Assembly (NCBI RefSeq): GCF_900625025.1
Contig: NZ_LR130574.1
Coordinates: forward strand, 62,001-126,000
From: Lachnoclostridium sp. Marseille-P6806
GTDB lineage: Bacteria; Bacillota; Clostridia; Lachnospirales; Lachnospiraceae
Direction of reading: 5' to 3'
DNA length: 64,000 bases
In this document: piece by piece, positions 1,369 through 43,670 of the stretch
How positions within the stretch are numbered: position 1 is the stretch's first letter
How the letters are laid out: every line of letters begins with the position of its first letter
Translations under genes and position numbers: made by a program
Notes under the pieces: model-generated
Seen by the model: only the letters and a program-made list of their open reading frames with translations
The model's database searches: none
Told to the model about the DNA's origin: nothing

Positions 1369-2347
1369 TGGACCTGCCGTAGACACCCTCTCCGATTTTC
1401 TGCGCCCCGTCCTCGAGATAGCTCTCGATCATAAGGCCTTTCACAAGGTGCCGGATATCCTCCGACACCCGCATGCTGTGGAGGACATCCTTGGCGATGC
1501 GGATCTGCTCCATGTACTGCTTGCCGGAGTTGGAATGATTCGTGTCGACGATAACCGCCGGATTGACCAGCCTCAGCTTCGCGTATTCTTTTTGAAGCCC
1601 CCGCAGGTCCTCGTAATGATAATTGGAGATGCTGTTGCCGAACCGGTCCGAATGCCCGCGCAGAATGGCATGCGCGAGAGGGTTGCCCTCCGTCTGTACC
1701 TCCCAGCCGCGATACAGAAACTTCTGGGGGCTCTGCGCCGCGGTCACGGCGTTCATCATAACCGAAATGTCGCCGCTCGTCGGATTTTTCATCCCTGCGG
1801 GAATCCCGATTCCGCTGGCTACAATCCGGTGCTGCTGATCCTCGACCGAGCGCGCACCGACCGCCACATAGCTCAGAAGGTCCGAAAGATAGCGGTGATT
1901 TTCCGGATAGAGCATCTCCTCCGCCGTGGAAAATCCGGTCTCCCGGAGCACGCGGGTATGCAGCTCACGGATTGCTATGATCCCGGCGAGCATGTCCTCC
2001 GCTTTCTCCGGATCGGGCTGGTGCAGCATCCCCTTGTAGCCGATTCCCTTGGTCCGGGGCTTATTGGTATACACCCGCGGAATAATGAAAATCCGCTCCC
2101 TTACTTTCTCCTGCACTGCGGCGAGCCGCGTCATATACTCGACGACCGCATCCTCCCGGTCGGCGGAGCAGGGCCCTATGATCAGGAGAAGCCGGTCGTC
2201 CTCCCCGCGGAAAATCCGCGCGATTTCCTCATCCCGCTCCTCTTTGATGCCACGGAGCTTCGCATCCAGCGGGAACTGCGCTTTCAGCTCCTGCGGAGCT
2301 GGAATCTTTCTGATAAATTCCATCTGCATTTCCATATTCATCACCAT
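1298..2347 (-). CDS. aroF: 3-deoxy-7-phosphoheptulonate (DAHP) synthase, class I
   Basis: Catalyses the first step of the shikimate pathway, phosphoenolpyruvate plus erythrose 4-phosphate to DAHP, in the cytoplasm. The 349-residue product has the family motifs IGPCSAD (57-63), a KPRTKGIGYKG loop and DTNHSNSGK near the C-terminus, and is the normal length of the AroFGH type. I start it at the ATG of MVMNMEMQMEF; upstream codons in the same frame lie in a repeat element and encode nothing family-like. It follows the aminotransferase gene by 38 bases, so the two may be co-transcribed. Its 3' end overlaps the convergent diguanylate cyclase gene by 71 bases. Which aromatic amino acid inhibits it cannot be told. 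Confidence 0.93.
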   Translation of the reverse strand: MVMNMEMQMEFIRKIPAPQELKAQFPLDAKLRGIKEERDEEIARIFRGEDDRLLLIIGPCSADREDAVVEYMTRLAAVQEKVRERIFIIPRVYTNKPRTKGIGYKGMLHQPDPEKAEDMLAGIIAIRELHTRVLRETGFSTAEEMLYPENHRYLSDLLSYVAVGARSVEDQQHRIVASGIGIPAGMKNPTSGDISVMMNAVTAAQSPQKFLYRGWEVQTEGNPLAHAILRGHSDRFGNSISNYHYEDLRGLQKEYAKLRLVNPAVIVDTNHSNSGKQYMEQIRIAKDVLHSMRVSEDIRHLVKGLMIESYLEDGAQKIGEGVYGRSITDPCLGWKKSKRLILELAELLA

Positions 2348-2395
2348 GACGAAGCGCCCTGTGTGAGGCGCATGCCGCAGACAGGCTACGCAAAC
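2348..2395 (-). repeat. start-codon-linked hairpin repeat, partial copy 1
   Basis: Read toward the DAHP synthase gene this contains CTGCGGCATGCGCC and GGGCGCTTCGTCATGG, the last-hairpin part of the family fully seen at 43535-43670. GCGCC and GGCGC can pair around TCACACA. It ends directly at GGTGATG and the ATG. The stop codon of the upstream aminotransferase lies at its outer edge. Confidence 0.55.
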
Positions 2396-3669
2396 GATCT
2401 GTGAATGACTTCGATGACACGGCTCTGCTGCTCCGGCGTCATCTTGTTGTCCGACGGCAGGCACAGTCCTCTTCGGAAAATATCACTGCCGACGTCCTGC
2501 TCCTCTGTTCCGGCGATGTAAGCGTTGCTTTGTCCGCGCCCGTTTCCCTCTACCGTGACAAAGGCGTTCATCCGGTAAATCGGCTGCATGTGCATGGGCT
2601 TCCAGACCGGCCGGCCCTCTGCGCGGATCGCCGCAAGCATATCCAGTATTTCCTGCGGACAGCTTCTGCCCGGGACCGACTGATAGAGGAAGTCCCGCTC
2701 CCCCCGCACCATCGGGCTCATGGCCTCTTCGCGGATGAGAAGACAGCTCAGCCAGTAGTTCGGCTCGCTGCGCTCTCCGTCAAAGGGGTTCATCTCGATC
2801 GGAAGATCCGCAAGCCCCTCCCGGTAACGCTCGTAGATCGCTTTTTTCTGCGCGATGTGCTCCGGAAGATGAGGGAGCTGCCCCCGCACCAGACCGGCAA
2901 TCACGTTGCTCATACGGTAGTTGTAGCCGATCTCCTCGTGCTGATACCACGGAGCCGCTTCCCGCGACTGCGTCGACCATTTGCGCACCTTATCCGCATC
3001 CGCCCTGCTGTCCGTCAGAAACATGCCGCCCGACGAGCCGGTGATGATCTTGTTCCCGTTGAAGCTGATGGCGTTGTAATCGCCGAAGGTCCCAGTCTGC
3101 CGGCCGTCATACATTGCGCCGAGAGACTCTGCCGCATCCTCGACGATCAGCGCCCCGTGCGAATCCGCAATCCGACGGATCTCCGCAATCCGGGCGGGCG
3201 TACCGTAGAGATGCGCCGCCACGATCAGTCTGACCTCGGGATAAAGAGCAAACGCTCTCTCCAGCGCGGCGGGATCCATGTTCCACGTGTTTCGCTCCGT
3301 GTCAATGAACACGGCCTCGCCGTCCTCATAGGCCACCGGATTCACCGTGGCGTCAAAGGTCATATCCGAACAGAATACTTTATGTCCGCGGAGCGTCCCC
3401 TCATTCGGACGGGCCATGCCGTAAAGCCGTTCTCCCGCAAGCTTCACCGCAAGATGGAGCGATGCCGTTCCGCAGGACAGCGCCACCGCATGACGGCAGC
3501 CGACATATTCCGCGACGCCGCGCTCCAACGCGTCGATGTTCTCCCCCACCGTGGACAGCCAGTTCGTCTCGTAGGCCTCCGTCACATAGCGGAGCTCGTC
3601 CCCGTGCATCGTGGGCGACGAAAGCCACAGCTTCTCCTCAAAGGGCCTGATATTCCCCAGTTCTTTCAT
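2386..3669 (-). CDS. DegT/DnrJ/EryC1/StrS-family PLP aminotransferase
   Basis: A sugar aminotransferase-type enzyme (427 residues) that should transfer an amino group from glutamate to a nucleotide-linked keto-sugar. The fold-type I signatures are present: a CGTASLH glycine/serine loop (66-72), EDAAE (177-181) whose Asp contacts the PLP ring, and the Schiff-base lysine at about 207 in FNGNKIIT. The ATG has GGGAG about ten bases upstream. It lies between the HxlR gene (37 bases upstream) and the DAHP synthase. It is remote from the main polysaccharide genes, but its family usually makes amino sugars for such polymers. The exact substrate is not readable. Confidence 0.88.
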   Translation of the reverse strand: MKELGNIRPFEEKLWLSSPTMHGDELRYVTEAYETNWLSTVGENIDALERGVAEYVGCRHAVALSCGTASLHLAVKLAGERLYGMARPNEGTLRGHKVFCSDMTFDATVNPVAYEDGEAVFIDTERNTWNMDPAALERAFALYPEVRLIVAAHLYGTPARIAEIRRIADSHGALIVEDAAESLGAMYDGRQTGTFGDYNAISFNGNKIITGSSGGMFLTDSRADADKVRKWSTQSREAAPWYQHEEIGYNYRMSNVIAGLVRGQLPHLPEHIAQKKAIYERYREGLADLPIEMNPFDGERSEPNYWLSCLLIREEAMSPMVRGERDFLYQSVPGRSCPQEILDMLAAIRAEGRPVWKPMHMQPIYRMNAFVTVEGNGRGQSNAYIAGTEEQDVGSDIFRRGLCLPSDNKMTPEQQSRVIEVIHRSFA

Positions 3670-3706
3670 CGGTCTTTTCTCCCTGTCATAAAATCCTGCA
3701 GCGCCA

Positions 3707-4057
3707 TCACAGATGCTCCTCTCCCCAGCGCTTCAGCATCAGAAGAATCGGTATCATGCTGCGCGATTTATCGGTCAGGGAATATTCTACACGAACCGGC
3801 ATCTCCATGTACTGCTTTCTTTCCACCAGTCCGTCCGTCTCCATCTCCCGGAGGGACTGCGCCAGCATGGTGTTTGTGATTCCGTAGACGGCCCGCCGCA
3901 GATCGCCGTAGCGGACGTTTCCCTCATCATTGATGACACAGAGAATCAGTATTTTCCATTTCCCTCCGATGATGTCCAGAACCTTCTTCAGGCCGCAGCC
4001 CTCGCCTGCCGTGCTTTCGCAGAGCGACTCCCTCCGCTCTTTACCTGTCGTTTCCAT
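3707..4057 (-). CDS. HxlR-family winged-helix transcriptional regulator
   Basis: A 116-residue protein with the whole HxlR domain: CGLKKVLDIIGGKWKILIL, then YGDLRRAVYGITNTMLAQSL (recognition helix region) and LVERKQYMEMPVRVEYSLT (wing). The early cysteine (CGL) is the residue redox-sensing members use. Family members bind short dyads near their own promoter and respond to electrophiles, oxidants or small molecules. I use the ATG at 4057, which has GGTGAT just before it; more upstream codons fall in the repeat element. It is divergent from ccdA and shares a 219-base control region with it, so control of ccdA and of the downstream aminotransferase is plausible. Confidence 0.9.
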   Translation of the reverse strand: METTGKERRESLCESTAGEGCGLKKVLDIIGGKWKILILCVINDEGNVRYGDLRRAVYGITNTMLAQSLREMETDGLVERKQYMEMPVRVEYSLTDKSRSMIPILLMLKRWGEEHL

Positions 4058-4108
4058 AAAAATCACCATGCCGAAGCTCTCCCGGCGAGACATGCGCCGT
4101 AAAATCCG
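4058..4108 (-). repeat. start-codon-linked hairpin repeat, partial copy 2
   Basis: In the direction of the HxlR gene it reads GCGGATTTTACGGCGCATG, then CTCGCCGGGAGAGCTTCGGCA, then GGTGATTTTT and ATG. This matches the 3' half of the complete elements. The 5' hairpins are missing. Confidence 0.65.
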
Positions 4109-4165
4109 CACACTCGTCCGTTCCCATGTATCCGACTGTTTTCATTCCGATCGTTCCCCGGTAAT

Positions 4166-4215
4166 TTTTCCGTACCAGCTAACTATATACTGCGTACTTG
4201 ATAAGTTTTCCGTAC
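4166..4215. promoter_or_regulatory. paired TTTTCCGTAC repeats in the hxlR/ccdA divergent region
   Basis: TTTTCCGTAC occurs at 4166-4175 and again at 4206-4215, with an extra GTACTT between them. The copies flank the TATATAC stretch in the intergenic region between the divergent HxlR and ccdA genes. A regulator binding site is a reasonable reading, HxlR being the obvious candidate; no known consensus is matched exactly. Confidence 0.4.
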
Positions 4216-4276
4216 TTTCAGTAATATGTCAAATATAGAACATTCCACGCCGCAAAACAAGTATATGAGGTTTTCC

Positions 4277-5221
4277 ATGAATCTTTCTGTCGAAACCAAT
4301 CTTTCCGTTCTGACTGTACTTCTTCAGGGATTTCTGAGCTTCTTCTCCCCCTGTGTGCTGCCGCTCCTCCCGGTTTATTTCGGGTATCTTTCCGGCGGCA
4401 CCGCGCAGAGCGACGAAAACGGGGTCATGCAGTACGACCGCCGCAGGGTATTCAAAAATACGCTGCTCTTCGTCCTTGGAATCAGCTTTGCTTTCTCCGC
4501 GCCGGGACTCGGCATGACCGCGCTCGGTGTCTTCTTCCGCAGCCATCATTTGCTTTTTTCGCGGATCGGCGGCGGGATCATTCTGCTGTTCGGCCTGCTT
4601 CAGCTCATCCTGTACAGCACGGACACGTCGAAGCTCCTTCGCATTCCGGGCCTTTCGCGACTCCTCGGATTCTTTGCCGGTGAGCACCGGCTCCCGCTCC
4701 GCCTCTCACAGATGGCGCTGTCCCCGCTCACCGCGTTTCTGCTTGGCTTCGTCTTCAGCTTTGCATGGACGCCCTGCGTCGGCCCCACGCTGTCCTCCGT
4801 CCTCCTCATGGCCGCGGCGCGAAGCTCCGCCGCGGAGGGCTTTCTTCTGATCGCGGCATATACCCTCGGCTTCGTCATCCCGTTCCTTGCCGCGGGTCTT
4901 TTCACCACCAGTCTCCTCGGCCTTTTCCGCAGGCATTCGGGTATTGTCCGCGGCGCGGCGCTGATCGGCGCGGTGATTATGATTCTCATCGGTACGATCA
5001 TGCTGACCGGCGGAGCGGGCCGCATTTCCTCATGGGTCGCGGCCGGATCCGCTGACCCGGGACGGCAATGTGTTCGGCTATGTCACCGGGAGCCTTTCGG
5101 AACAGACCATGCGGAACATCATCGCGCAGACGCAGGAGGACGGCGGAAAATAATCCCGCTTGACATGACCGGATCGGGTATTGTAAGATACTATCTGCGC
5201 CACAGGGAATCATTGATGTGA
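4277..5221 (+). CDS. ccdA: CcdA-family thiol-disulfide transporter with an aberrant C-terminus
   Basis: CcdA proteins carry reducing equivalents across the membrane to extracytoplasmic thioredoxin-like proteins. The 314-residue frame has the two family cysteine motifs, FFSPCVLPLLPVY (Cys26) and FAWTPCVGPTL (Cys167), and about six membrane helices. I start at 4277 because GAGG lies six bases ahead; earlier ATGs lack a ribosome site. The last normal residues are around IGTIMLTGG (238-246). After about residue 258 the frame is hydrophilic and unlike the family, and it runs over the tRNA promoter to stop six bases before the tRNA. In another frame the same DNA encodes the end of a redoxin, so the gene end appears to be a deletion junction. 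The core may still work. Confidence 0.8.
   Translation: MNLSVETNLSVLTVLLQGFLSFFSPCVLPLLPVYFGYLSGGTAQSDENGVMQYDRRRVFKNTLLFVLGISFAFSAPGLGMTALGVFFRSHHLLFSRIGGGIILLFGLLQLILYSTDTSKLLRIPGLSRLLGFFAGEHRLPLRLSQMALSPLTAFLLGFVFSFAWTPCVGPTLSSVLLMAAARSSAAEGFLLIAAYTLGFVIPFLAAGLFTTSLLGLFRRHSGIVRGAALIGAVIMILIGTIMLTGGAGRISSWVAAGSADPGRQCVRLCHREPFGTDHAEHHRADAGGRRKIIPLDMTGSGIVRYYLRHRESLM
5046..5153 (+). pseudogene. 3' remnant of a thioredoxin-like (TlpA/redoxin) gene
   Basis: In the frame ending with the TAA at 5151-5153, the DNA encodes LTRDGNVFGYVTGSLS followed by a helix ending NIIAQTQEDGGK. This resembles the last strand pair and helix of TlpA-type redoxins, where a DG-GYV-G-L pattern precedes the C-terminal helix. 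No catalytic CxxC or N-terminus remains. Redoxins commonly sit beside ccdA as its electron acceptor, so I infer that a deletion removed about the first three quarters of this gene and joined its tail to ccdA. Confidence 0.65.
5160..5189 (+). promoter_or_regulatory. promoter of tRNA-Pro
   Basis: TTGACA (5160-5165) and TAAGAT (5184-5189) are 18 bases apart, and the tRNA begins 38 bases beyond the -10 box. The promoter lies inside the aberrant end of the ccdA frame. Confidence 0.6.
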
Positions 5222-5227
5222 CGCAAT

Positions 5228-5301
5228 CGAGGCGTGGCTCAGTTTGGTAGAGCGCTGCGTTCGGGACGCAGAGGTCGTGGGTTCGAATCCCGTCGCCTCG
5301 A
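5228..5301 (+). tRNA. tRNA-Pro (anticodon CGG)
   Basis: A 74-base cloverleaf. The acceptor stem CGAGGCG pairs with CGCCTCG, with discriminator A. The anticodon arm is CTGCG-TTCGGGA-CGCAG giving CGG, and the T arm is GTGGGTTCGAATCCCGT-like. The CCA end is not encoded. It reads proline CCG codons. Confidence 0.97.
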
Positions 5302-5321
5302 CTTTATTTATATTGAAAAGA

Positions 5322-5418
5322 GACTGTGGAAAAGGGAAAGTCCGGCTCATAAACCACGCTGATATTGCCGTATCGGCGCGCTGCATGAGACAGACTTTCT
5401 GCTTTTTCACAGTTTTTT
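5322..5418 (+). terminator. long inverted repeat with T-run after tRNA-Pro
   Basis: The 20-base arms at 5322-5342 (GACTGTGG...GAAAGTC) and 5393-5413 (GACTTTC...CACAGT) are nearly complementary, with one bulge and two mismatches. A TTTTTT run follows. The loop is about 50 bases. It could terminate the tRNA transcript, or mark the ends of a lost small element. Confidence 0.35.
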
Positions 5419-5466
5419 GTTCCGGTATCGTTTCCCTTTACCGGGCAGATTCCGGAACCGCATCCG

Positions 5467-6633: not shown

Positions 6634-6772
6634 ATGATTTTCCCCATTTCCGTCCTGACCTGAAGTCAGGTCTATGCGCTGCAATACGTTTTGTACCACA
6701 GCATGAAGAAAACTACAATCACTTTATTGTTATGAGAGAAATTCGCCCTCTCTTCTCAATCTTTTTCTTTTT

Positions 6773-6805
6773 TTCAATCTTTTCTCAAGCTTTTCGCTGT
6801 ATCAT
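6773..6805 (+). promoter_or_regulatory. response-regulator promoter with tandem TTCAATC-type boxes
   Basis: TTCAATC (6773-6779) and CTCAAGC (6784-6790) are 11 bases apart, one DNA turn. The second box is followed after nine bases by TATCAT (6800-6805). No -35 box is evident. The same boxes, period and gap occur before the VTC gene at 8776-8808. This is typical of an activated OmpR-class promoter, so autoregulation is inferred. Confidence 0.6.
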
Positions 6806-6827
6806 GATAACGTAAGGTGGTGATGGT

Positions 6828-8772: not shown

Positions 8773-8775
8773 AAC

Positions 8776-8808
8776 TTCAATCTTCTTTCAATCAACCTCC
8801 CTTACAAT
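8776..8808 (+). promoter_or_regulatory. promoter of the VTC operon with tandem TTCAATC boxes
   Basis: TTCAATC at 8776-8782 and again at 8787-8793 (11-base period), a nine-base gap, then TACAAT (8803-8808). Spacing is identical to the promoter at 6773-6805. It would let the upstream two-component system control the three genes that follow. Confidence 0.6.
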
Positions 8809-8831: not shown

Positions 8832-8839
8832 TATTCTTT

Positions 8840-9517: not shown

Positions 9518-9536
9518 TTTGAAAGGAGCAAAAATC

Positions 9537-10208: not shown

Positions 10209-10220
10209 GGAGGCGATCAC

Positions 10221-20391: not shown

Positions 20392-21433
20392 AGATTCTCT
20401 CCAACTCCTCAATATGGCGCTCCAGACTGTAATCGCGCCGCGCCGCCGCAAGGGACGCCGCACCGGCTGCCTCTCTCTCTTCCTCGTGCGTGAGGTAGCG
20501 GATGATGCCCTCCGCCATGCCGGCCGCGTCGCCCGGCTCATAGAGGCGGCCGTTCACACCGTCCTCGATCAGACGGGGAATTCCTCCTGTGCGGGAAGCA
20601 ACAGCCGGAACGGCATAGCCCATCGCCTCCAGAATCGACATGGGCATCGCCTCGCTGTACGACGGCAGAAGAAACACCGCCGTGCCGTGCATGACGCGAT
20701 CCTTCTCCTCGCCGCGGATCCAGCCGGGGAACCGCACATTTTTCTCCCGCAGCTTCTCCGGGAGTCCCGCCCGGACAGCCTCCGTCTCTCCCACGCCGCA
20801 GAGCACAAAGCGCGCGTCCGGCACCGCCTCGCAGACCCGGGCGATAATCTCCGGCATGTCCCGGCTCCCTTTCATCGGATTGATGAGCCCCAGAAAGGTG
20901 ACCTGCTTACTGACGCGGCTCTCCGGCGTCGGCCCGTCCGTCCGGATCGCGGTGTAATTATGGAGCACCTCGATCTTTTCTTCTGGGACAATCGCAAGAA
21001 AGCGCTCCTTCCATGCCTCGGTCAGGGTAAGGATCACCGCGCATTCCCCGTAGACCCGTTTCACCTGACGCTTCTTGAAGCGTCCCGCCCGGGTATAGAA
21101 GCGGTCAAATTCGGACCCGTGGATATGATTCACCACCGGGATCCCGCGCCGCGCACAGGCGTCGATGATCGGAAGCTTCCGCCAGAAGCTCGGACCGAAA
21201 GAAGAATGCACATGCACCAGAGCCGGCGGATCGCTGCGAAGAAGCCGCCGAAACGCAAGATACCCCCGGAGCGCTTTCCGGAGCTTCGTCCACTTCGAGC
21301 CGTCGCAGTAGGTCTCGATATAGGTGACGTCGTAATCCTCCTCGAGGCGGCTTCCGTAATAGGCGGAAATCACGGCCGTCATTCCGCCCTTTACGTCGCG
21401 CTGTGTAACGATCATGCAGATATGCGTTTTCAT
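20351..21433 (-). CDS. GT4 glycosyltransferase
   Basis: 360 residues in two Rossmann halves. The N-terminal half has ICMIVTQRDVKGGMTAVISA and HVHSSFGPSFWRK, and the C-terminal half TFLGLINPMKGSRDMPE, FLLPSYSEAMPMSILEAMGY (the donor-binding EX7E region) and PRLIEDGVNGRLYE. It transfers a sugar from a nucleotide donor with retention. Its ATG overlaps the stop of the initiating sugar transferase (ATGA), so it is a good candidate for adding the second sugar to the lipid carrier. Confidence 0.92.
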   Translation of the reverse strand: MKTHICMIVTQRDVKGGMTAVISAYYGSRLEEDYDVTYIETYCDGSKWTKLRKALRGYLAFRRLLRSDPPALVHVHSSFGPSFWRKLPIIDACARRGIPVVNHIHGSEFDRFYTRAGRFKKRQVKRVYGECAVILTLTEAWKERFLAIVPEEKIEVLHNYTAIRTDGPTPESRVSKQVTFLGLINPMKGSRDMPEIIARVCEAVPDARFVLCGVGETEAVRAGLPEKLREKNVRFPGWIRGEEKDRVMHGTAVFLLPSYSEAMPMSILEAMGYAVPAVASRTGGIPRLIEDGVNGRLYEPGDAAGMAEGIIRYLTHEEEREAAGAASLAAARRDYSLERHIEELERIYEKCLGRAGAERG

Positions 21434-22854
21434 TTTGCTCCCTTATGAAACAGCACGACGCCCACGGTCTGCAGAAGAATCTTGATATCCAGCGCGAGGC
21501 TCCAGTTGTCGATATACTGGAGATCAAGACGCACCACCTCGTCAAAATCCGTGATGTCCGACCGGCCGCTCACCTGCCAGAGCCCGGTGAGACCCGGCGT
21601 CATGGAAATGCGCCGGCGGTAATGCTCATTGTACTGCTCGAACTCTTTCTCTGTCGGCGGCCGCGTTCCCACAAGGCTCATGTCGCCCTTCAGCACATTC
21701 AGAAACTGCGGAAACTCGTCGAGACTGGTCCGGCGCAGGAAGCGCCCGACCCTCGTGATCCGCGGATCATTTTCCATCTTGAACATAAGACCGTTCATCT
21801 CATTGCTGCCCTGCAGCTCCCGAAGCCGCTCCTCCGCGTCCCGATACATCGAGCGGAACTTATATATCCGGAAGCGGCGCCCGTTTTTTCCGACGCGAAG
21901 CTGGGAAAAGAACACCGGCCCGGGCGAGTCAATGAGGATCGCCGGGGCAAGAAACAGCGTGATGATCCCCATGAGCAGAACACCGATCAGCCCACCCAGA
22001 ATATCCATCGCCCGCTTGCACAGAAGCCGCTTGCTGCTGTACCGGAAGCGAGTATAGGAAATGACGGAGTAATCCCCGAACATGTCCACCTTTCCCGCAG
22101 TTCCCTCCAGATCGGGGAGCTCGAGATTGTAATGCACGGTGACGCCCATCTCCTCAAAGCCCGCGATGATCCCATGCATCCGATATTGCGAGATCTCCGG
22201 TGTATTGATGAACACCTCGTCGAACGGGACCGTCGTCATGAGCTCCGTGAGATTCTGCAGCCCCATGAATACCGGAATCCCGAAAATATCCTCTTTCATC
22301 TCCGTGGCCGCCTGGCCGGGTTCCGCGAGCACCGCCCCGATCACCTCAAGACCGGCGTCCGCCTCCCGCCGGAGGCGGATGATCGTGCTCTCCATCTGCT
22401 CCGCTCCGGCAATGACGAGCACCTTTGTCACCAGCAGCTCCGCCCGCATCGCCCTGCGGAGAATTTCCTTATATATGCAGTGCACCGTCAGCAGGGCCGC
22501 GCCGTCGATGGCAAAAAACCACAAAAATACAGTCCGGGAAATATAGAGCGAAAGCCTTGCCATGAACACGAACACCACGGCGATCAGCAGAATCACCGCG
22601 TTGAATTTCAGCACCGCCGTCAGCTCCCGGAAATATCCCCGCTTCAGATAATCATGATTCCAGTCGAGGAAAAAGCTGTACACCGACGCCCCCATCAGAA
22701 ACACCGCGAGAATGAGATAATGGATCCGGGAACTCGCCATATCATTATTGTTGCCGTAGCGTATCCATGTCGCGATGAGGTAGCTCACCGTGATGCAGAC
22801 CATGTCGAGAAACCACAGACTGTATGTGCGGAATACATTTTTGTTCTGATTCAT
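21430..22854 (-). CDS. polyprenyl-phosphate sugar-1-phosphate transferase (initiating enzyme)
   Basis: 474 residues. Four to five N-terminal membrane helices, a Rossmann-like middle domain (about 135-260), a further helix at about 285-310 and the bacterial sugar transferase domain: FFSQLRVGKNGRRFRIYKFR, LRRTSLDEFPQFLNVLKGDM, SLVGTRPPTEKE and TPGLTGLWQVSGRSD. It loads a sugar phosphate on undecaprenyl phosphate and so starts the repeat unit. The start at 22854 follows GGTGAT; upstream in-frame codons are repeat DNA. Between it and the preceding gene lies a complete hairpin repeat. Confidence 0.94.
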   Translation of the reverse strand: MNQNKNVFRTYSLWFLDMVCITVSYLIATWIRYGNNNDMASSRIHYLILAVFLMGASVYSFFLDWNHDYLKRGYFRELTAVLKFNAVILLIAVVFVFMARLSLYISRTVFLWFFAIDGAALLTVHCIYKEILRRAMRAELLVTKVLVIAGAEQMESTIIRLRREADAGLEVIGAVLAEPGQAATEMKEDIFGIPVFMGLQNLTELMTTVPFDEVFINTPEISQYRMHGIIAGFEEMGVTVHYNLELPDLEGTAGKVDMFGDYSVISYTRFRYSSKRLLCKRAMDILGGLIGVLLMGIITLFLAPAILIDSPGPVFFSQLRVGKNGRRFRIYKFRSMYRDAEERLRELQGSNEMNGLMFKMENDPRITRVGRFLRRTSLDEFPQFLNVLKGDMSLVGTRPPTEKEFEQYNEHYRRRISMTPGLTGLWQVSGRSDITDFDEVVRLDLQYIDNWSLALDIKILLQTVGVVLFHKGAK

Positions 22855-22862
22855 GAAAATCA

Positions 22863-22996
22863 CCATTCCGAAGCACTTTATGCGAGGCACACACCGCAAG
22901 ATCCGCGCAGGCGGTTTGCGGATGCGATGGGGGCGATTCGGGCTTCGGCACAAATCGCCGTGTGAAAATCAACGCATCCTCGTGATGTTTCACACC
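22863..22996 (-). repeat. start-codon-linked hairpin repeat, complete but diverged copy 3
   Basis: Read toward the sugar transferase gene it has all the parts: an imperfect palindrome GTGTGAAAcATCA... (22960-22995), arms GGCGATTTG and CGAATCGCC around GCCGAAGCC, arms CCGCAA and TTGCGG around the CGCCTGCGCG core, and a final ATGCGAGGCA / TTCCGAAGC hairpin ending nine bases before the ATG. Two A-T pairs of the second stem in copies 4 and 7 are G-C here on both sides. The upstream gene ends 36 bases before it. Confidence 0.8.
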
Positions 22997-23031
22997 ATTC
23001 CTCCGCGCAGAATGGCCGCGCCTCCGCCCCG

Positions 23032-25205: not shown

Positions 25206-26252
25206 TCAGACGGATGCCCGTCCGCTCTCCGGGCCGACTCCGGCAGCACACCGGCGCAGCTTATCCGCCGCGCGCCGAAGCTTCCGGCAAAGGGCCTGTT
25301 TTTGACTCAGCAGACGAACCGCCGGCGCATCACTTTCCCATGCCCTCTGCCGCTTTCTGCGGGCAAAGCGGCGGCTCCTCCGGTACGCCGAAAGCTCCTC
25401 CCGGCACTGTTCTGCCGTACAGAGCCTGCCGTCCCGACCGAGATACGCAAACGCATCATAAATATTCTGCTCCGAGGCCCAGTAACCGTCCGAAACGTTG
25501 TGACGGGCCCAGTATTTCGGCGCAATCACCATGCGCACGGTATCGCTCGTATAGGCCGGAAAGAACGCGAAGCTCGAATTGGAAAGGATAAGATAACGGG
25601 CGTTCTTCACGGTCACATAGTCTTTTTCCGGAGAAAAATGATACGCAGGGAGCTCCGGCAGCAGCTCCCGCGCCGCCTCCATGTCGTCCGTCACAATCAT
25701 AAAGCGCATGGCGGGATTCTCCCGTCGCATGAGCGCCATGGCGTCCGTCCAGTATTTTTTCCGGAGAAAAAGCTCACTCTTGTCCCGGTACTCCCCGCCC
25801 CGCAGGTTGAGGATGCACAGATCGTCCGCCGTATATTCGTCCGACTCGTACTCCGGCTTCACGGCAAGCCAGCGGCGGATATCCCCGCGGTGCCCGCGGA
25901 AATACGCCTCGGCCTGCAGATTTCCGTACAGGAGCGTACAGACGTCTGCTCTGCCCGCGATCTCACGAAGCCCCGGATCCGCCCCGGCAATATAGCAGCC
26001 GCGGGTCATGTCATGCGGCGAGTTTTTGCAGTATATCCGCTCCTCGGCCTCGTCGTACCGGACAAGCCGCACGCCCGGCGGCAGCTCCTCCGCGCGCTGT
26101 CCCGGCCCGGCGGAGAGGAAATCCGCCTGCAGAAGCTCCCATCCCGCCGTTACAAAGGGCACGCCGAGCTCCTCGGCGAGGCACCTTGCCGTGACATAGC
26201 AGAAGAGCCGGTTTCCGAGCCCCTGCCCGGGAAGAAATTCCGTTCCGATCAT
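25206..26252 (-). CDS. GT11-like glycosyltransferase
   Basis: 348 residues. PGQGLGNRLFCYVTARCLAE replaces the GGLGNQMFQYA of GT11, LCILNLRGGEYRDKSEL fits the donor-binding HLRRGDY position without the His, and ARYLILSNSSFAFFPAYTSD matches the late ANSSFSWWGA motif. It is therefore a relative of fucosyltransferases with changed active-site residues; a different donor sugar is possible. The C-terminus is very Arg-rich (about 290-340). Its ATG overlaps the preceding stop as ATGA. Confidence 0.7.
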   Translation of the reverse strand: MIGTEFLPGQGLGNRLFCYVTARCLAEELGVPFVTAGWELLQADFLSAGPGQRAEELPPGVRLVRYDEAEERIYCKNSPHDMTRGCYIAGADPGLREIAGRADVCTLLYGNLQAEAYFRGHRGDIRRWLAVKPEYESDEYTADDLCILNLRGGEYRDKSELFLRKKYWTDAMALMRRENPAMRFMIVTDDMEAARELLPELPAYHFSPEKDYVTVKNARYLILSNSSFAFFPAYTSDTVRMVIAPKYWARHNVSDGYWASEQNIYDAFAYLGRDGRLCTAEQCREELSAYRRSRRFARRKRQRAWESDAPAVRLLSQKQALCRKLRRAADKLRRCAAGVGPESGRASV

Positions 26253-27196
26253 CCGCGCTCTCCTCCGCCGCGTCCGCACCGCCCCCGCAGAAGCATGCGC
26301 CTGCGCGCTTCGATGGCGCCGACGCTGACCCTGTCCCAGAGCCGCTGATACCACTTCGGTTCCTTATAAAGAAGATAGGAAAAGCGATCTATATGCTCGC
26401 GCAGATACCGGGGATAGCTGTCGTCAATCACGCTGACCACCAGCTCGCTGTCCCGTCCCAGAATATCCTTTTTGCTGCGAAGATTGCTGCCGACCTCAAA
26501 GAGCGTCCGGCGGTTATTGTAATTCTGATGCGCCGCGCTCCGGATCTTGTAGCGGACCCGGTCCTCTACAGACTGATCCTTTCCCCCGCCCATATAGCTG
26601 AAATGCCAGCCGCCGCGGTCCACCCGCACGCCGATGGCCTGCTGCTCCCTGTCCCGGAGCTGCTCGGTCGTGTACTGCGACAGGAGGCGCTTACGGCATA
26701 TTTTCGTCCCGAGCCAGCGCTTTGGCTCCGCGCCCTCAAACTCGCCGGTCGTCGAAAGATTCTTTCCGGAGACATCCTCAAGATTGAGAAAGCAGTAAAA
26801 CAGGCGCTGCGCCAGCATATAGATCCTGCCGTCCTCCACCGCGGGGAGAAGCTCCCGGAGCGTTTCCGGATCAGGAATTTCATCCACATCGGAAAAAATG
26901 ATGATGTCCTCCGGCTTCGCTTCCGTGAGGCCGCGCATCACCGCGCACTTCTGATGATGATCCCGCGCATAGGCGTCGCAGTCCATCGGCGTGTCGTCCA
27001 CAACCACATGGATGATCCTGTCCTTGAACTCCCGGAACAGCTCCCGGTTCTCCTCATAGAACAGAGGCTTGGGATCCCCCGAAAAGGTCACTGTCGACTC
27101 GCTGATGACAAAGCGGTCGACCACATCGCTCAGAATATGGAGCCGCAGATCCAGAATATCCAGCTCATTGAAGAACTGAAAGCAGTCATATACCAT
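26249..27196 (-). CDS. GT17-family glycosyltransferase
   Basis: 315 residues. It opens with MVYDCFQFFNELDILDLRLH and continues with FVISESTVTFSGDPKPL, DIIIFSDVDEIPDPETL (metal-binding SDVDE) and GGWHFSYMGG, which together are the GT17 pattern known from eukaryotic bisecting GlcNAc transferases and bacterial capsule loci. I prefer the ATG at 27196, preceded by GGGGAG; an ATG at 27208 would add four residues read from repeat DNA. It lies downstream of a complete hairpin repeat. Confidence 0.87.
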   Translation of the reverse strand: MVYDCFQFFNELDILDLRLHILSDVVDRFVISESTVTFSGDPKPLFYEENRELFREFKDRIIHVVVDDTPMDCDAYARDHHQKCAVMRGLTEAKPEDIIIFSDVDEIPDPETLRELLPAVEDGRIYMLAQRLFYCFLNLEDVSGKNLSTTGEFEGAEPKRWLGTKICRKRLLSQYTTEQLRDREQQAIGVRVDRGGWHFSYMGGGKDQSVEDRVRYKIRSAAHQNYNNRRTLFEVGSNLRSKKDILGRDSELVVSVIDDSYPRYLREHIDRFSYLLYKEPKWYQRLWDRVSVGAIEARRRMLLRGRCGRGGGERG

Positions 27197-27205
27197 AGTA
27201 CTCCC

Positions 27206-27341
27206 CATACCGAAGCGTTTTTTTGCGAGGCACGCGCCGTAAAATCCGCGCAGGCGGTTTTGCGGCTGCGATCAGGAGCAATTTGGGCTTCGGCACAAAT
27301 TGCTGTGTGAAAAATCAGCGCATCAGCGTGATTTTTCATAC
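27206..27341 (-). repeat. start-codon-linked hairpin repeat, complete copy 4
   Basis: Over 27234-27341 it differs from copy 7 (43562-43669) at only three of 108 positions. It contains the TGAAAAATCA/TGATTTTTCA palindrome (27304-27340), AGCAATTTG/CAAATTGCT, GCCG(T)AAAA/TTTTGCGGC and the last hairpin, then GGGGAGTACT and the GT17 start. The stop codon of the upstream DUF5672 gene (27323-27325) lies inside the palindrome. Confidence 0.85.
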
Positions 27342-28114
27342 TGAGCCCCATGCCGAAGCGTCCCCCGCGAGGCACGCGCCGATTCCCGCAGATCCAGTCT
27401 GTCCATCAGCTTCTGCACTCTTCGGCTCTTGAAAAGAAAGTTCGGATACTCCGCGTTCGTCCCCGCCCATTTATGAAAGACAAAGGGGCGTATCCCCTCA
27501 AACTCCGGCTGCATGCTCTCGTGCCCGAAATATTTCGCAAGCTCAAACGGCGCAAAGCGCATCCCCGCCTCCTCAAAAAGAAGGTGATTTTTTACGCAGA
27601 TAAAGCCGTCCTCGTTGAAAAAGCCGTGATCCGCCTCAAACGGCATGCCGCTCTGCGAGGGAAATTTCAGCAGCCGGAGACTGCGGATCGAGACGCTGTT
27701 CCCGACACGGATGAGCCTGCCCTCCGGGTCGCGGTAAGTGACATCGTCTTTCGGAACCGGGAACGGCGAGCCGATATAATCGTAATCCAGAAATTCATCC
27801 CGCCAGCTTTCCGGGTTAACCACAAAGCCGTCGTAATGCACGAGAAGCATATAGTCCGTGTGAATGTACCTCCACATCTCATAGATCATATCGTAATTGA
27901 ACCGGTCGATATGGTCGATTCGGTCAATATGCTGATAGCGGATATTCTTTGGAAGAAACAGCGGCTTTTTGTGCGAAATCAGCGTCACCGCGGCAAAGTC
28001 GACGCCCCGGCAGCTGTATTCCAGCGCTTTTACGGTCGCCCCGAGCTTCACGCTGGTCATCGCCGCCAGCGTCACATTCGGAAGCTGCAGTTTTCCGTTT
28101 TTATATTCTGCCAT
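27323..28114 (-). CDS. DUF5672-family protein, putative glycosyltransferase
   Basis: 263 residues. The core motif MLLVHYDGFVVNPESWRDEF with FLDYDYIGSPFP, and later GFFNEDGFICVKNHLLFEEAG, defines DUF5672, a family found in polysaccharide loci and thought to be a glycosyltransferase. The last 20 or so residues (after DRLDLRESA) are read from a partial repeat (27350-27386) and from the next repeat's palindrome, so the natural end was probably replaced. Start at 28114, three bases after the upstream stop. Confidence 0.8.
   Translation of the reverse strand: MAEYKNGKLQLPNVTLAAMTSVKLGATVKALEYSCRGVDFAAVTLISHKKPLFLPKNIRYQHIDRIDHIDRFNYDMIYEMWRYIHTDYMLLVHYDGFVVNPESWRDEFLDYDYIGSPFPVPKDDVTYRDPEGRLIRVGNSVSIRSLRLLKFPSQSGMPFEADHGFFNEDGFICVKNHLLFEEAGMRFAPFELAKYFGHESMQPEFEGIRPFVFHKWAGTNAEYPNFLFKSRRVQKLMDRLDLRESARASRGTLRHGAQYEKSR
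27350..27386 (-). repeat. hairpin repeat, fragment 4b inside a coding end
   Basis: CGGCGCGTGCCTCGC followed by GCTTCGGCATGGGG in the minus direction is the last hairpin of the family. It sits directly upstream of complete copy 4 and is translated as the tail of the DUF5672 protein. Confidence 0.65.
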
Positions 28115-28117
28115 ATC

Positions 28118-32879: not shown

Positions 32880-32906
32880 ATATGGCGTACACCGTGACGA
32901 AGAGGA

Positions 32907-32966
32907 GGCGTAAAGCCGCCTGCGCGGATTCTACGGCGCATGCCTCGCACAAAACACTTCGGCATT
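32907..32966 (+). repeat. start-codon-linked hairpin repeat, 3' part, copy 5
   Basis: It has GGCGTAAAGCCGCC, TGCGCGGATTCTACGGCGC and then GCCTCGCAC and CACTTCGGCAT, followed by TGAGGATTACT and the ATG of the XRE gene. In the third stem CGTA pairs with TACG, where copy 7 has CGCA with TGCG, so both sides changed. Confidence 0.75.
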
Positions 32967-32976
32967 GAGGATTACT

Positions 32977-33201
32977 ATGGCTGTAAGTTACAAGAAATTA
33001 TTCCATATGCTGATAGACAGAAATATGACAGCTGCGGAGCTTCAGAAAAAAGCCGGATACAGCGCCAATATTTCAACACGAATGCGCCGGGACGAGTATG
33101 TGTCCCTCGATTCGATAGAAAAAATATGCCGAGTATTGGGCTGTAAGGTAGACGATATCGTTGATTTCATACCTGATGAGGATAAGGTGTCAGAGAAATG
33201 A
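32977..33201 (+). CDS. small XRE-family regulator, likely controller of the R-M operon
   Basis: 74 residues made almost only of a helix-turn-helix domain (KKLFHMLIDRNMTAAELQKK, AGYSANISTRMRRDE, LDSIEKICRVLGCKVDDIVDF). The ATG at 32977 has GAGG seven bases upstream; a TTG four codons earlier lies in the repeat. Its stop overlaps the methylase start (ATGA). In many R-M systems such a small protein times expression so that methylation precedes cutting. It could instead be an ordinary regulator. Confidence 0.82.
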   Translation: MAVSYKKLFHMLIDRNMTAAELQKKAGYSANISTRMRRDEYVSLDSIEKICRVLGCKVDDIVDFIPDEDKVSEK

Positions 33202-36279: not shown

Positions 36280-36390
36280 TTATTCAGCCGGCTCAGCATA
36301 TCTTTTAAGATATACAAGTACAGCTGAAGATAAGCGGAAGAAAGAACTGACCCTTGAGAAGTCAAATACCCCGCCGCAGAACACCTGAAT

Positions 36391-36570
36391 AAAATTGCCG
36401 AAGCCCAAATAGCCCCCCATCGCAGCCGCAAAACCGCCTGCGCGGACCTTTCAGCAAACGAAACTGCTGTCCGGCAGAGGGACGGCACGAGCCGCAACGC
36501 GACTCGGCACCCTGCGCGCTGGCGCTGGGTGATTGCGGCGCATACCTCGCCGGGAACACTTCGGCACGGA
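36391..36570 (+). repeat. hairpin repeat copy 6, split by an ~82-bp insertion
   Basis: The left part (36391-36448) matches GCCGAAGCCCAAAT, ATCGCAGCCGCAAAACCGCC and TGCGCGGA; the right part (36531-36570) matches GCGGCGCATACCTCGCC and CACTTCGGCAC. About 82 bases of GC-rich DNA lie between them, exactly in the loop side of the third hairpin. It ends at GGAGGACAAC and the ATG of the deacetylase-like gene. The remaining 36280-36390 is AT-rich with no gene seen. Confidence 0.75.
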
Positions 36571-36577
36571 GGACAAC

Positions 36578-37318
36578 ATGAAGATTGCGCTGCGCATGGA
36601 TGATATTACCGCCGATATGGACTGGGCCCGTTTCCGGAGAATGAAAGCACTGCTGGACCGCGCCGGAATACGCCCGCTCATCGGCGTCGTGCCGTCGCCG
36701 CAGGATGCAGGGCTCCATTTCGAGGCGCCGCACGAAGACTTCTGGGCTTCCGTAAGACAGTGGAAAGAGGCCGGCTGGACCATCGCCATGCACGGCCTCA
36801 CACATGTTTATACCACGGCGGACGGCGGCATGTTTCCGCTGAACCGCCAGTCCGAATTTGCGGGCCTTTCTCTCTCCCGGCAGCGGGACATGATCGCGGA
36901 GGGGAAACGGCTTCTTGCAGAGCAGGGCATCCGCACGGATATCTTCATGGCCCCCTCCCACTCCTACGACCGGTCTACTCTGACGGCCCTGAAAGACAAC
37001 GGCTTCACCCGTATCACGGACGGCTTCGGCCGCGCGCCCTACCGCTGCGCTGGCATGACGTTCTATCCGATCTCCGCCGACCGGCGCAGGGCTCTTGCCG
37101 CCCGCAGAGGCATGACCACCTTTGTCCTCCACACAAACACGATGACAGAGAGCGACTTCGCTTTCTATGAGACACTGCTGGAGGGGGGAAAGGTGATCTC
37201 CTACGACGAGCTGCTGCAATGCCCGGCCGGGCCCAGAGGTCCTCTCGGGTGCGCTCTGGAGTACGGCATGGCCCGCGGAAAGCGCTTCCTTGTCGGGCTC
37301 CGAACTGGGCGGGGGTGA
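36578..37318 (+). CDS. DUF2334-type polysaccharide deacetylase-like protein
   Basis: 246 residues of a NodB-like barrel: ALRMDDITADMDWARF (metal-binding DD), PLIGVVPSPQD, TIAMHGLTHVY (MHGxTH, metal-binding) and FMAPSHSYDRSTL. The family resembles carbohydrate de-N-acetylases. No signal peptide, so it would act on an internal sugar intermediate. It is the only polysaccharide-type gene on the plus strand and converges on the asparagine synthase gene (13 bases between ends). The ATG at 36578 follows GGAGG. Confidence 0.85.
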   Translation: MKIALRMDDITADMDWARFRRMKALLDRAGIRPLIGVVPSPQDAGLHFEAPHEDFWASVRQWKEAGWTIAMHGLTHVYTTADGGMFPLNRQSEFAGLSLSRQRDMIAEGKRLLAEQGIRTDIFMAPSHSYDRSTLTALKDNGFTRITDGFGRAPYRCAGMTFYPISADRRRALAARRGMTTFVLHTNTMTESDFAFYETLLEGGKVISYDELLQCPAGPRGPLGCALEYGMARGKRFLVGLRTGRG

Positions 37319-37331
37319 TCCTCCGCGGCGT

Positions 37332-39311: not shown

Positions 39312-39324
39312 AAAAAACCTCCAT

Positions 39325-40434: not shown

Positions 40435-41588
40435 TCCGATACCTGTCCCCCGCTGCTTCCATCCAGCACGCTCCGCAGATACTCTTCCCAGCGGGCAAGC
40501 GCCTGCTCCGGAGCGCAGAGCTCCCGGACCCGGACGGCGGCCTGTCCCATCCGCGCGGCAAGCTCCGGCGCCTCCAGCAGCTCCCGGCAGGCCTCCTCCA
40601 TCGCCCTGGCATCGCCCACCGGGACAAGGATCCCGTTCTCATGGTCACGGATGAGCTCGCCCGGGCCGCCGCAGGGACAGTCCGTCGCGATGCAGGGAAG
40701 TCCCAGTGCCATGGCCTCGAGCAGAGCGTTCGGCATCCCCTCCCGGTTCGAGGCAAGGAGAAAGAGCGACGCCCGGCTGATCCGTTCCGCCACGTCCTCC
40801 GTCGTCCCGGCAAAAAGAACCCGCTCCGCAAGTCCGAGCCGGCATGTCTCCGCCTCGAGCGCCTCCCGCGCGGGGCCGTCTCCGTACAGCACCAGCCGGT
40901 ACTCCGGAAATGCCGCCGCCAGACGTGAAAACGACGTGATCATCAGCTTTTGATTTTTATTCTCATCGATGCGTCCCACGGAGACAATGGTCTTCTCCCG
41001 CTCGCCCGTCCACGGCTCCCGCATGAACTGTTCATGCAGCGGATTCGGAAGAATCACGGCCTTTTCCGCGATAACCTGCGGAAAAAAATCCTTTCCCGCC
41101 GCGGTCTGGAGCACGACTCCCGCCGCGCGCGGGAAAAACCGCAGCATCTCTCTGCGCAGTCTCGGATCGGCGTACTCTCTCGCGGGATCGCTGCGGACGG
41201 ACACGACGACCGGAATCCCCAGTCCCGATGCCGAGGACAGGGCCATGACGTTATTTTTTCCGATAAAGGAGAGTATGATATCCGGCCGCTCCTTTTTCCA
41301 TATCCCCCGAAGCTTTTTCCAGCGGCGGAAAAAATTGACCGGCCTCCCGACAAGCGGCAGCGCACAGAGCTCCCGCCCCGTGATGTCCGAGAGAACCCGG
41401 CGGATGCCGTCTCCGCCCGCATGACGCAGCCGGTATTCGTCCGGACGGCGGTACTGGGTCACAAGCGTCACCTGCCAGCCCCGCTCGCAGAGATAATCCG
41501 CCAGATTCGCCATCACGCGTTCCGCACCGCCCTTATTCAGTGAATTGATAAACAACGCAATGTTCGGCATCCGCTTCTCCGTGTTCAT
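40431..41588 (-). CDS. GT4 glycosyltransferase
   Basis: 385 residues. NIALFINSLNKGGAERVMAN, SFIGKNNVMAL, VSVGRIDENKNQKLMI and SNREGMPNALLEAMALGLPC (EX7E region) define a retaining GT4 of the WcaL/PglA/RfaG type. It shares the TDCPCGGPGELI ending with the GT4 at 44530-45639, so the two are paralogues. It overlaps both neighbours by ATGA, giving tight coupling of asparagine synthase, GT4 and SGNH-like genes. Donor unknown. Confidence 0.92.
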   Translation of the reverse strand: MNTEKRMPNIALFINSLNKGGAERVMANLADYLCERGWQVTLVTQYRRPDEYRLRHAGGDGIRRVLSDITGRELCALPLVGRPVNFFRRWKKLRGIWKKERPDIILSFIGKNNVMALSSASGLGIPVVVSVRSDPAREYADPRLRREMLRFFPRAAGVVLQTAAGKDFFPQVIAEKAVILPNPLHEQFMREPWTGEREKTIVSVGRIDENKNQKLMITSFSRLAAAFPEYRLVLYGDGPAREALEAETCRLGLAERVLFAGTTEDVAERISRASLFLLASNREGMPNALLEAMALGLPCIATDCPCGGPGELIRDHENGILVPVGDARAMEEACRELLEAPELAARMGQAAVRVRELCAPEQALARWEEYLRSVLDGSSGGQVSE

Positions 41589-43525
41589 CCCATATATTTT
41601 TCATACCACTGCTGAAAGACAAAAAACGACCATGCCAGCTTGGAATAGTTCGCCCCGGTCGCAGGACCCCCGTCCCCCTTTGCAAGGTAGCCCGCCATGA
41701 GCCTTGCGGTATAATCCGAGTCGAACAGTCCCTGCCGGGCAAGAAAATCCCGGTCGCAGTACGCCTCGAGCCGCTCCCGGAGAGGGCCCCGCAGCCATTT
41801 GTCGAGCGGAACGCCGAAGCCCCGCTTGGGCCGATCAAGAAGCGCGCGCGGGATGTAATCATAGGAGAGATCCTTGAGTATCGCTTTCTTCTCCCCTCTG
41901 CGGCACTTGAACGCATGGGGAATGCGGAACGAAAGCTCCATCACCTCCTGATCGAGGATGGGGCAGCGGGTCTCCAGCGAATATTTCATCGACGCACGGT
42001 CGACCTTGCACAGAATATCGCCCGGCAGATAGTACTCCATGTCAAGCAGCATCCTCCGGATCTGCCAGTTTCTCACGCCGTAGCGGCTCTCCACCGGATA
42101 ATTCACGGGGAGCATGCCGCCCGCGGAGGGGCCGCCGCTTCCCTCCGGAGCCTGCACCATCCGGATCGCATGCTCCACATAGCTCCCCGCGCCGAACTGG
42201 GTCTTCGTCTCGCGGTTCCGGTTGGCCGCGACCACGCGGACGCGGAACGGATAACGCGATTCCAGCTTCCGCCCCCCTCCGGCCGGAAGCTGTCCCACCG
42301 CATGGGCGAGCGCCCCGATTCCGTCAAGAAGCTGTGCCTGCCGAACATTGTCATAGATATTGTAGCCGCAGTAAAACTCGTCGCCGCCGTCGCCGGAGAG
42401 GGCGACCGTGACCTCGCGCCGCGCCAGCATGGACACAAGCATGGTCGGGATTTGCGAGCTGTCCGCAAAGGGCTCGTCGAAGTATGCGGGAATGCTGTCC
42501 ACAAGCCCGAACATCTCGTTTTCTCCGATGCAGAGCTCCGTGTGATCGGTCCCGAGATGCCGCGCCACCTCCCGCGCGTATCCGGATTCGTCGTACTGCT
42601 TCTCCTCAAAGCCGATGGAAAACGTCCTGAGGGGCTGCCCGCCCTCCTGCAGGGATATCCTCTGCGCGATCGCCGAAATCAGCGAGCTGTCGTAGCCCCC
42701 GCTGAGAAAGGAGCCAAGCGGAACATCCGCGACCATGCGCTCCCTCGTCGCGGCGGTGAGCGCCTCCGAGAGCCTCCGCTTCGCCTCCGCGTAATCCCGG
42801 ATCGGATCGGCGGCCATCCGGTGATAAACCTCCGGAACGCTCCAGTACCGCGTCTTCATAAGACGCTTCTCTGCCGGCCCGCCGCCGAGCCGCAGCGTCA
42901 TCCGCATGCCCGGCTCCAGCTTGTACACATTCTCAAAAATCGTCTCCGGCGCGTTGATGTACTGCTGAAACAGGAACCTCGCCATCACATCCCGCCGGAT
43001 GCACCCGGTAAAGCCCGGACAGAGCAGAATCGGCTTCAGCTCGGAGGCAAAGGCCAGCTCCGTTCCGTCAAGCCAGTAGTAAAAGGGTTTCTTCCCGATG
43101 CGGTCCCTCGCAAAGACAAGCTTTCGCTCCTCTCTGTCATAGATCGCGAGGGCAAACATTCCCCGCAGATGATCGAAGCAGTCCTCTCCCCATTTCCGGT
43201 ACGCCGCAAGAATGACCTCCGTATCGCAGGAGGAGCGGTAGGGATAATCCGGCAGCTCGCTTCGCAGCTCCCGGAAATTATAAATTTCTCCGTTGAACAC
43301 GATGACGAGCCCCCCGTCCGCCGAGGTCATCGGCTGATGGCCCTGCGGGGACAGGTCGTTGATCGAAAGCCGCCGGTGCGCCAGCAGAACCTGCACGCCC
43401 TCCGCCGCCTCAAAGCGGGCGGTTCCGGCGTCATTCGGCCCCCGGTGCGTCATGCTGTCGTTCATCGCCGACAGCGCCTCCTCCGTAATCCGTTTTTTTC
43501 CGATGTATCCGCAGATTCCGCACAT
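41585..43525 (-). CDS. asnB: asparagine synthase-type glutamine amidotransferase, second paralogue
   Basis: 646 residues. Cys2 in MCGICGYIG, RGPNDAGTA and FNGEIYNF form the glutaminase site, and LSGGYDSSLISAI with LSGDGGDEFYCGYN the synthetase site. Processing places the Cys at the N-terminus, so the start at 43525 is firm; upstream frame residues come from the hairpin repeat. With the 37332-39311 paralogue it suggests amidation of two different carboxylated sugars or two steps. Its stop overlaps the GT4 start (ATGA). Confidence 0.92.
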   Translation of the reverse strand: MCGICGYIGKKRITEEALSAMNDSMTHRGPNDAGTARFEAAEGVQVLLAHRRLSINDLSPQGHQPMTSADGGLVIVFNGEIYNFRELRSELPDYPYRSSCDTEVILAAYRKWGEDCFDHLRGMFALAIYDREERKLVFARDRIGKKPFYYWLDGTELAFASELKPILLCPGFTGCIRRDVMARFLFQQYINAPETIFENVYKLEPGMRMTLRLGGGPAEKRLMKTRYWSVPEVYHRMAADPIRDYAEAKRRLSEALTAATRERMVADVPLGSFLSGGYDSSLISAIAQRISLQEGGQPLRTFSIGFEEKQYDESGYAREVARHLGTDHTELCIGENEMFGLVDSIPAYFDEPFADSSQIPTMLVSMLARREVTVALSGDGGDEFYCGYNIYDNVRQAQLLDGIGALAHAVGQLPAGGGRKLESRYPFRVRVVAANRNRETKTQFGAGSYVEHAIRMVQAPEGSGGPSAGGMLPVNYPVESRYGVRNWQIRRMLLDMEYYLPGDILCKVDRASMKYSLETRCPILDQEVMELSFRIPHAFKCRRGEKKAILKDLSYDYIPRALLDRPKRGFGVPLDKWLRGPLRERLEAYCDRDFLARQGLFDSDYTARLMAGYLAKGDGGPATGANYSKLAWSFFVFQQWYEKYMG

Positions 43526-43534
43526 ACGAACCAC

Positions 43535-43670
43535 TATGCCGAAGCACTTTGTGTCAGGCGCGCGCCGCAAAATCCGCGCCGGCGGTTTTGCGGCTGCGAT
43601 CAGGAGCAATTTGGGCTTCGGCACAAATTGCTGTGTGAAAAATCAGCGCATCAGCGTGATTTTTCACACA
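43535..43670 (-). repeat. start-codon-linked hairpin repeat, complete reference copy 7
   Basis: Best copy, about 136 bases. In gene direction: (1) TGTGTGAAAAATCA / TGATTTTTCACACA (14-bp arms); (2) AGCAATTTG / CAAATTGCT around TGCCGAAGCC; (3) GCCGCAAAA / TTTTGCGGC with an inner CCGC/GCGG stem; (4) GCACAAAGTGC within TGCC-like/TTCGGCAT flanks. It ends nine bases before the asparagine synthase ATG. It contains no reading frame of its own kept among copies. Confidence 0.9.

Follow-up and report, generated by a model that had tools for sequence, protein, structure and literature searches.

The repeated element and the genes that follow it

The window, i.e. the whole stretch of 64,000 nucleotides that was analysed (Lachnoclostridium sp. 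Marseille-P6806, contig NZ_LR130574.1), holds eight places occupied by an element of about 140-150 nt, six on the minus strand and two on the plus strand, as detected by cmsearch with the core model R1. The element is built of three conserved hairpins (H1, H2 and H3), usually followed by a fourth one (H4), and of a 3'-terminal Shine-Dalgarno (SD) motif. Full copies, about 145 nt long in the window, display in gene direction the order H1, H2, H3, H4, SD and start codon, the latter being found mostly 11-12 nt after H4.

Seven of the eight copies precede a gene located on their own strand. Full copies are present on the minus strand at 22850..22995, before a sugar transferase gene (21430-22854; R1 core match 22850-22890), at 27192..27341, before a glycosyltransferase-17 gene (26249-27196; R1 core match 27192-27239), and at 43523..43669, before an asparagine synthase gene (41585-43525; R1 core match 43523-43567), this last copy being the reference for the fold. 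A GGAGG is found directly 5' of H1 in the first of them (about 22999-23003). Two other copies of the minus strand are reduced to the end module, namely 2330..2371 (H4 and SD only), before a DAHP synthase gene (1298-2335 or 2341), and 4052..4099 (H4, SD and a trace of H3), before an HxlR gene (3707-4057). On the plus strand, a truncated copy made of H3, H4 and SD (32907..32976; R1 core match 32934-32976) precedes an HTH_26 (XRE-like) gene (32977-33201), and a copy made of part of H2, H3 with an 86-nt insert, H4 and SD (36391..36583; R1 core match 36536-36583) precedes a DUF2334 gene (36578-37318). The eighth copy, an end module on the minus strand (27334..27381), is in tandem with the full copy at 27192-27341, immediately on its 5' side, and precedes this neighbour, not a credible gene of its own; a DUF5672 ORF (27323-28114) ends within it.

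A preliminary description of this DNA had listed the repeat at 2348, 4058, 22863, 27206, 32907, 36391 and 43535, and all seven places do carry it, the copy at 27334-27381 being an addition. The orientation reported there, identical relative to the following gene on either strand, was recovered, the seven copies preceding a gene of the same strand, and the announced targets were confirmed by Pfam (DAHP synthase, HxlR, bacterial sugar transferase, glycosyltransferase 17, HTH_26 and asparagine synthase), with DUF2334 as the gene after the copy at 36391. The ordered set of hairpins proposed as common to all seven holds for the three full-length copies only (22863, 27206 and 43535; 132-171 bits with the structure model R2), the others being truncated, insert-bearing or end modules. 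No described family had been recognised, and none was found in Rfam: at the gathering score there was no match to the element in the window, and a search of six element loci at E ≤ 1 gave at best 0.043 on the element, far below the gathering score. The sole Rfam match in the window at the gathering score is a tRNA gene at 5228-5301.

Fold and modular structure of the element

Hairpin H1 is long and closed by a short YGAT-like loop, and the inner part of H3 reads AAACCGC...GCGGATTT. Folding of one full copy gave z = -4.35, with none of 200 shuffled sequences being equally stable, and RNAalifold applied to 24 copies of the source genome yielded 42 pairs, 12 of which show two-sided changes. Complementarity exists between the H2 loop and the 3' arm of H4 (GCCGAAGC and GCTTCGGC in the source genome), and the letters of the two segments change jointly in other genomes, to TGCCTGAGC/GCTCAGGCA in G021, GTCGAAGCGC/GCGCTTCGAC in G007 and GACGAGC/GCTCGTC in G285. 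Covariation of this pseudoknot was evaluated by permutations, to whose outcome relatedness between the genomes may still contribute. Using one copy from each of 20 genomes (G005, G006 and G028, which are without H4, were left out beforehand), the score was 21.7 for own pairs versus 15.1 for swapped pairs (0 of 10,000 permutations). With 28 genomes, i.e. after addition of 8 of 11 further loci (two of the other three being cut short and one lacking H2), it was 22.1 versus 15.1 (0 of 20,000 permutations), a result that was unchanged with 27 distinct pairs. Pairing between the H2 loop and the H4 arm is poor in G001, G015, G031, G032 and some single copies, and H4 or the pseudoknot is absent in some relatives. 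Two alternative pairings are possible for H4, one with its own 5' arm and one with the H2 loop. When folded, the element can comprise four hairpins plus a probable knot, and its fold is retained among genomes despite new letters, with compensatory changes.

Module classes were attributed to 130 copies of the source genome using simple score thresholds set by shuffles. Considering the upstream modules, 28 copies have H1-H2-H3, 18 have H1-H2-H3 plus an 86-nt second repeat, 34 of the 130 show neither hairpin nor insert at these thresholds, and the remainder have whole hairpins missing. Inserts recur at identical internal points of the element. As the copies differ by whole-hairpin losses and by shared inserts, the family was copied, and the discrete module classes and recurring inserts are the trace left by the copying of an element with subfamilies.

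The second repeat, of about 86 nt, is found inside H1 or H3 in 35 of the 130 copies (e.g. 36391-36583 in the window), and in one orientation in 34 of these 35; within H1, a repeated GATTT borders it in the manner of a short target duplication. Tandems of head-to-tail copies, with the H1 of one directly after the SD of another, are seen in the window (27192-27381) and at two other loci (L086 and L290).

Genomic positions, distribution and empty sites

The source genome (3.13 Mb in 38 contigs, 96.7% complete) contains at least 151 R1 matches at E ≤ 0.5, the best 130 of which were examined. The core pattern, allowing up to 2 mismatches, gave 63 matches in this genome and 0 in the reversed-pattern control. 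The element is copied more than 100 times in the source genome. A coding start was found within 32 nt in sense for 104 of the 130 copies and on the opposite strand for 12; the test is not very stringent, since shifted control positions passed it in 214 of 779 cases. Because R1 contains the SD and ATG columns, the test was repeated on the 63 pattern matches (the pattern stops before the SD), and a coding start was found in sense for 51 and in antisense for 7. Random orientation, which was looked for genome-wide as a refutation of the orientation noted in the window, is not what the counts of 104 in sense and 12 in antisense display. The distance to the start is either 11 or 12 nt for 65 of the sense copies (n = 104) and for 33 of the 51 pattern matches in sense. 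The core falls within a predicted coding sequence in 3 copies on the same strand and 4 on the opposite strand (n = 130), compared with 644 of 780 control positions. Four upstream tandem members and the copy before the short HTH_26 gene, which is real by Pfam, are among the 26 copies for which no start passed the test; of the others, many are without a credible gene, and some look decayed or precede short genes.

An SD-like motif on the 5' side of the element is an addition to the preliminary description. It occurs within 14 nt before H1 in 36 of 54 copies of the source genome (6, 7 and 5 in upstream control windows), the 18 others being without it. The corresponding set from other genomes comprised 67 rows, with one place duplicated, hence 66 (one row with a missing flank was skipped); the motif was found in 43 of these 66 copies (5, 2 and 6 in control windows) and not in 23, and the right end shows an SD and a start in 49 of the 66, using a loose pattern. 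For the 36 source-genome copies with the motif, joining of the flanks with 3 nt kept before the ATG placed the left SD of 31 at a spacing of 5-8 nt from the start codon. A target-site duplication of the SD was considered and is not supported: the similarity between the left flank and the copy's own right SD was not above permutation (489 of 5,000), and no target duplication is therefore shown. An effect on SD accessibility was rejected, none being predicted (0.47 with the element versus 0.49 for the joined flanks; n = 18, p = 0.64); this calculation leaves out pseudoknots, and with that limit its result fits a near-neutral insertion and does not fit a strong switch.

In the genus, R2 detected the element in at least 26 of 40 genomes; in the order, R3, a model built from several species, detected it in at least 12 of 295, which belong to 8 genera and 2 families (the source genome is included in both counts); absences are weak with R3, for which filters were stricter and the best 10 candidates per genome were scored. 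New R3 loci with readable flanks mostly show an SD on both sides. In 100-kb samples of four element-bearing genomes, six matches at E ≤ 0.01 were obtained in G015, G026 and G031 and none in G027, and a covariance-model scan found no element in 100-kb samples of four genomes without R2 matches. Perfect hairpins with an SD on either side were also looked for de novo in the 100-kb samples, an approach that proved insensitive: it found none even in the window, because H1 carries a bulge in the copies there.

The element pattern was not found in viral contigs (four pattern scans) or in plasmid records. Phage records gave one partial match, MT836788.1 (L348; "Bacteriophage sp.", human feces). It has one element before an enolase-like gene and, as judged by eye, bacterial-looking genes including a cysteine desulfurase-like gene, and it looks like a bacterial contig. 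The only core-pattern match in genome contigs, a collection that may lack the source genome and those very close to it, was found in Paraburkholderia, in a GC-rich stretch without other hairpins, and was taken as chance.

Genomes G021 and G035 are close (95.8-99.5% identity over four shared loci). In G021, one element separates the end of a rimM-like gene from trmD, and another stands before a lepB-like gene further downstream; we presume these gene names from the frames that were read and from the customary gene order. G035 is without either element, and the flanks are 93-96% identical. At one of the two sites (A), the empty allele consists of a stop codon, GGGAAAA and ATG, and in the filled allele AGGA is retained before the element, the right end being the element's own SD. 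At the other (B), AGGGAC stands 3 nt upstream of the ATG when the site is empty, and in the filled allele the left SD is partly lost and the right side carries GAAAGGTAAA, which is present at other G021 copies. The insertion point lies 1-4 nt before the ATG at both empty sites, neither of which shows a long duplication, the exact base of insertion being ambiguous. No element was seen by eye at the trmD start of the outgroups G026 and G032, nor was it found by a model scan of their loci from the trmD region; as these outgroups are without the element, a gain in G021 is the simpler reading.

For lepA, a match was obtained in 38 of 40 genomes, 30 loci were fetched and 29 scanned; the element is present in 1 of these 29 orthologous loci, that of the source genome. 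The pair G003 and G013 was rejected as an empty site: at the place of the full element of G003, G013 carries a different H1-type hairpin (L218:1464-1526; 25 bits with R3), with a wholly different stem, located between two SDs. A 100-kb stretch of G013 yielded no further copy, and the ortholog of the G003 locus in G007 has a single SD.

Candidate explanations and related systems

The explanation that we favour, and consider probable, is that of a non-autonomous mobile element which enters the gap between SD and ATG, re-supplies an SD and is moved in trans. Fold, orientation, position, copying and the two empty sites are the observed parts of this reading, and the ERIC/BOX-like mobile repeat put forward in the preliminary description gains from the many copies, the nested and subfamily structure, the positions differing between species and the same two sites. 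From these we infer insertion into the SD-ATG gap with SD replacement: the element would insert on the sense strand between the SD and the ATG of a gene, and its own SD would take over from the displaced one, so that translation of the invaded gene would survive. More speculatively, the transfer would involve a folded single strand with an SD-like sequence at both ends, the element moving as single-stranded DNA (or RNA) that is recognised by its shape and not by its letters, with the SD-like sequence as a putative recognition or cleavage site and the mobilising enzyme supplied in trans. With such a transfer, the fixed orientation would be understandable, as would the head-to-tail tandems and the retention of the fold despite new letters, and a replacement SD brought by the element would allow it to spread with little damage. 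Part of the pattern could be made by selection removing other insertions, and not by targeting.

A structured leader RNA had also been proposed, and the fold with compensatory changes and the covarying pseudoknot speak for the structural part of this proposal. A conserved cis-regulatory leader (riboswitch-like or protein-binding) that controls the translation of a regulon, with the pseudoknot between H2 loop and H4 arm beside the SD as the switch, would also agree with the sense orientation, the position beside the SD and the either-or pairing of H4. However, we hold it to be unlikely, because the targets are unrelated (the window genes, lepA, trmD, the lepB-like gene and enolase), the position is not conserved (1 of 29 lepA loci), gains are recent (G021 versus G035), the predicted SD accessibility is unchanged and the pseudoknot or H4 is absent in some species. 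Riboswitches and regulons are recognised by related targets and by retention at orthologs, and neither was seen for the element, judging from the window targets and the 29 lepA loci. A mobile element may later have been used for regulation.

An ordinary MITE/REP/ERIC-like repeat inserting widely, with survivors only at SD-ATG gaps because these alone are harmless, would explain why copies are nearly absent from coding sequence, and bacterial repeats of such size are common (e.g. BOX and RUP, PMC3049150). This is quite improbable, as harmless insertions should also occur at a distance upstream of genes and in convergent intergenic regions, whatever their orientation, whereas the start distance clusters at 11-12 nt and an SD-like motif is found at the 5' edge; in addition, neither terminal inverted repeats nor a target duplication became apparent. 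A reverse-transcribed element, with a reverse transcriptase acting in trans that would copy a folded mRNA leader and place the copy at translation starts, would agree with the sense orientation, with a fold conserved at the single-strand level and with ends at SD-like sequence, and is regarded as very improbable. The recombination site for gene cassettes that had been listed as a third candidate is not supported, the copies being dispersed on both strands beside unrelated chromosomal genes.

Single-strand transposons of the IS200/IS605 type have non-autonomous derivatives, including REP/RAYT, which the element resembles by its hairpin ends and may resemble by an apparently fixed orientation relative to a short 5' sequence, no target duplication being shown. 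It differs from them in having four ordered hairpins with a pseudoknot and in its putative target, the SD-ATG gap. It also differs in its relation to the Y1 transposase (Pfam PF01797), which has 0 matches in the source genome, where a Y1 gene may be missing since the assembly is 96.7% complete, and none in five other R2-positive genomes (G006, G021, G026, G031 and G035). Y1 was found in 28 of 40 genomes of the genus, and the element is present in at least 20 of the 28 genomes with Y1 and at least 6 of the 12 without, i.e. with no clear association; no element was found in 20 Y1/RAYT-like stretches. Y1/RAYT was therefore rejected as mobiliser, with no match in the source genome, no clear association and no linkage. 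Integron attC sites are recognised as a folded single strand, their letters varying while the fold is kept, a property shared by the element. Unlike attC sites, which lie after cassette genes, the copies are dispersed singly on the chromosome, on both strands and before genes, a layout that does not look like a cassette array.

Small dispersed repeats are already known in many bacteria, and no description of such an element was found in the literature searched, mostly outside subscription papers. The closest in print that were found are the TAACTGA repeats of Beggiatoaceae and pneumococcal BOX/RUP. Pneumococcal BOX/RUP, ERIC and BIME are, like the element, short, modular, folded, present in many copies and presumably moved in trans; the element is set apart by abutting starts in one orientation and bringing an SD. 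In PMC3049150, BOX, RUP and SPRITE are reported as over-represented between convergent genes. The TAACTGA repeats of marine Beggiatoaceae (PMC4679880) are heptamer direct repeats, unlike the element. The standby pseudoknot of the tisB mRNA (PMC7708055) is similarly an RNA pseudoknot located 5' of a start codon and is reported to influence translation, but it belongs to a single-gene system, whereas the element is a dispersed repeat.

We advance only tentatively the possibility of a new class of mobile element, in which a folded single-stranded shape including the pseudoknot would be recognised, the SD-ATG gap would serve as integration address, an SD would be re-supplied and the enzyme would be of a type not yet linked to such elements. 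The address would be unusually precise, with few bases between ribosome-binding site and start codon and a replacement site carried in. By inserting between SD and ATG, a selfish element could in a simple manner persist within operons and upstream of core genes (trmD, lepA, enolase). Recognition by shape is testable, since two families share the fold with differing letters, and identification of the enzyme would define a new targeting mode. The element could rewrite the translation leaders of more than 100 genes in one genome, and annotation pipelines should expect it when calling starts.

In G021, a Clostridiales-1 RNA (RF01699, 113 bits; L079:1714-1881, minus strand) is located just downstream of an element copy and is antisense to the reading frame after it.
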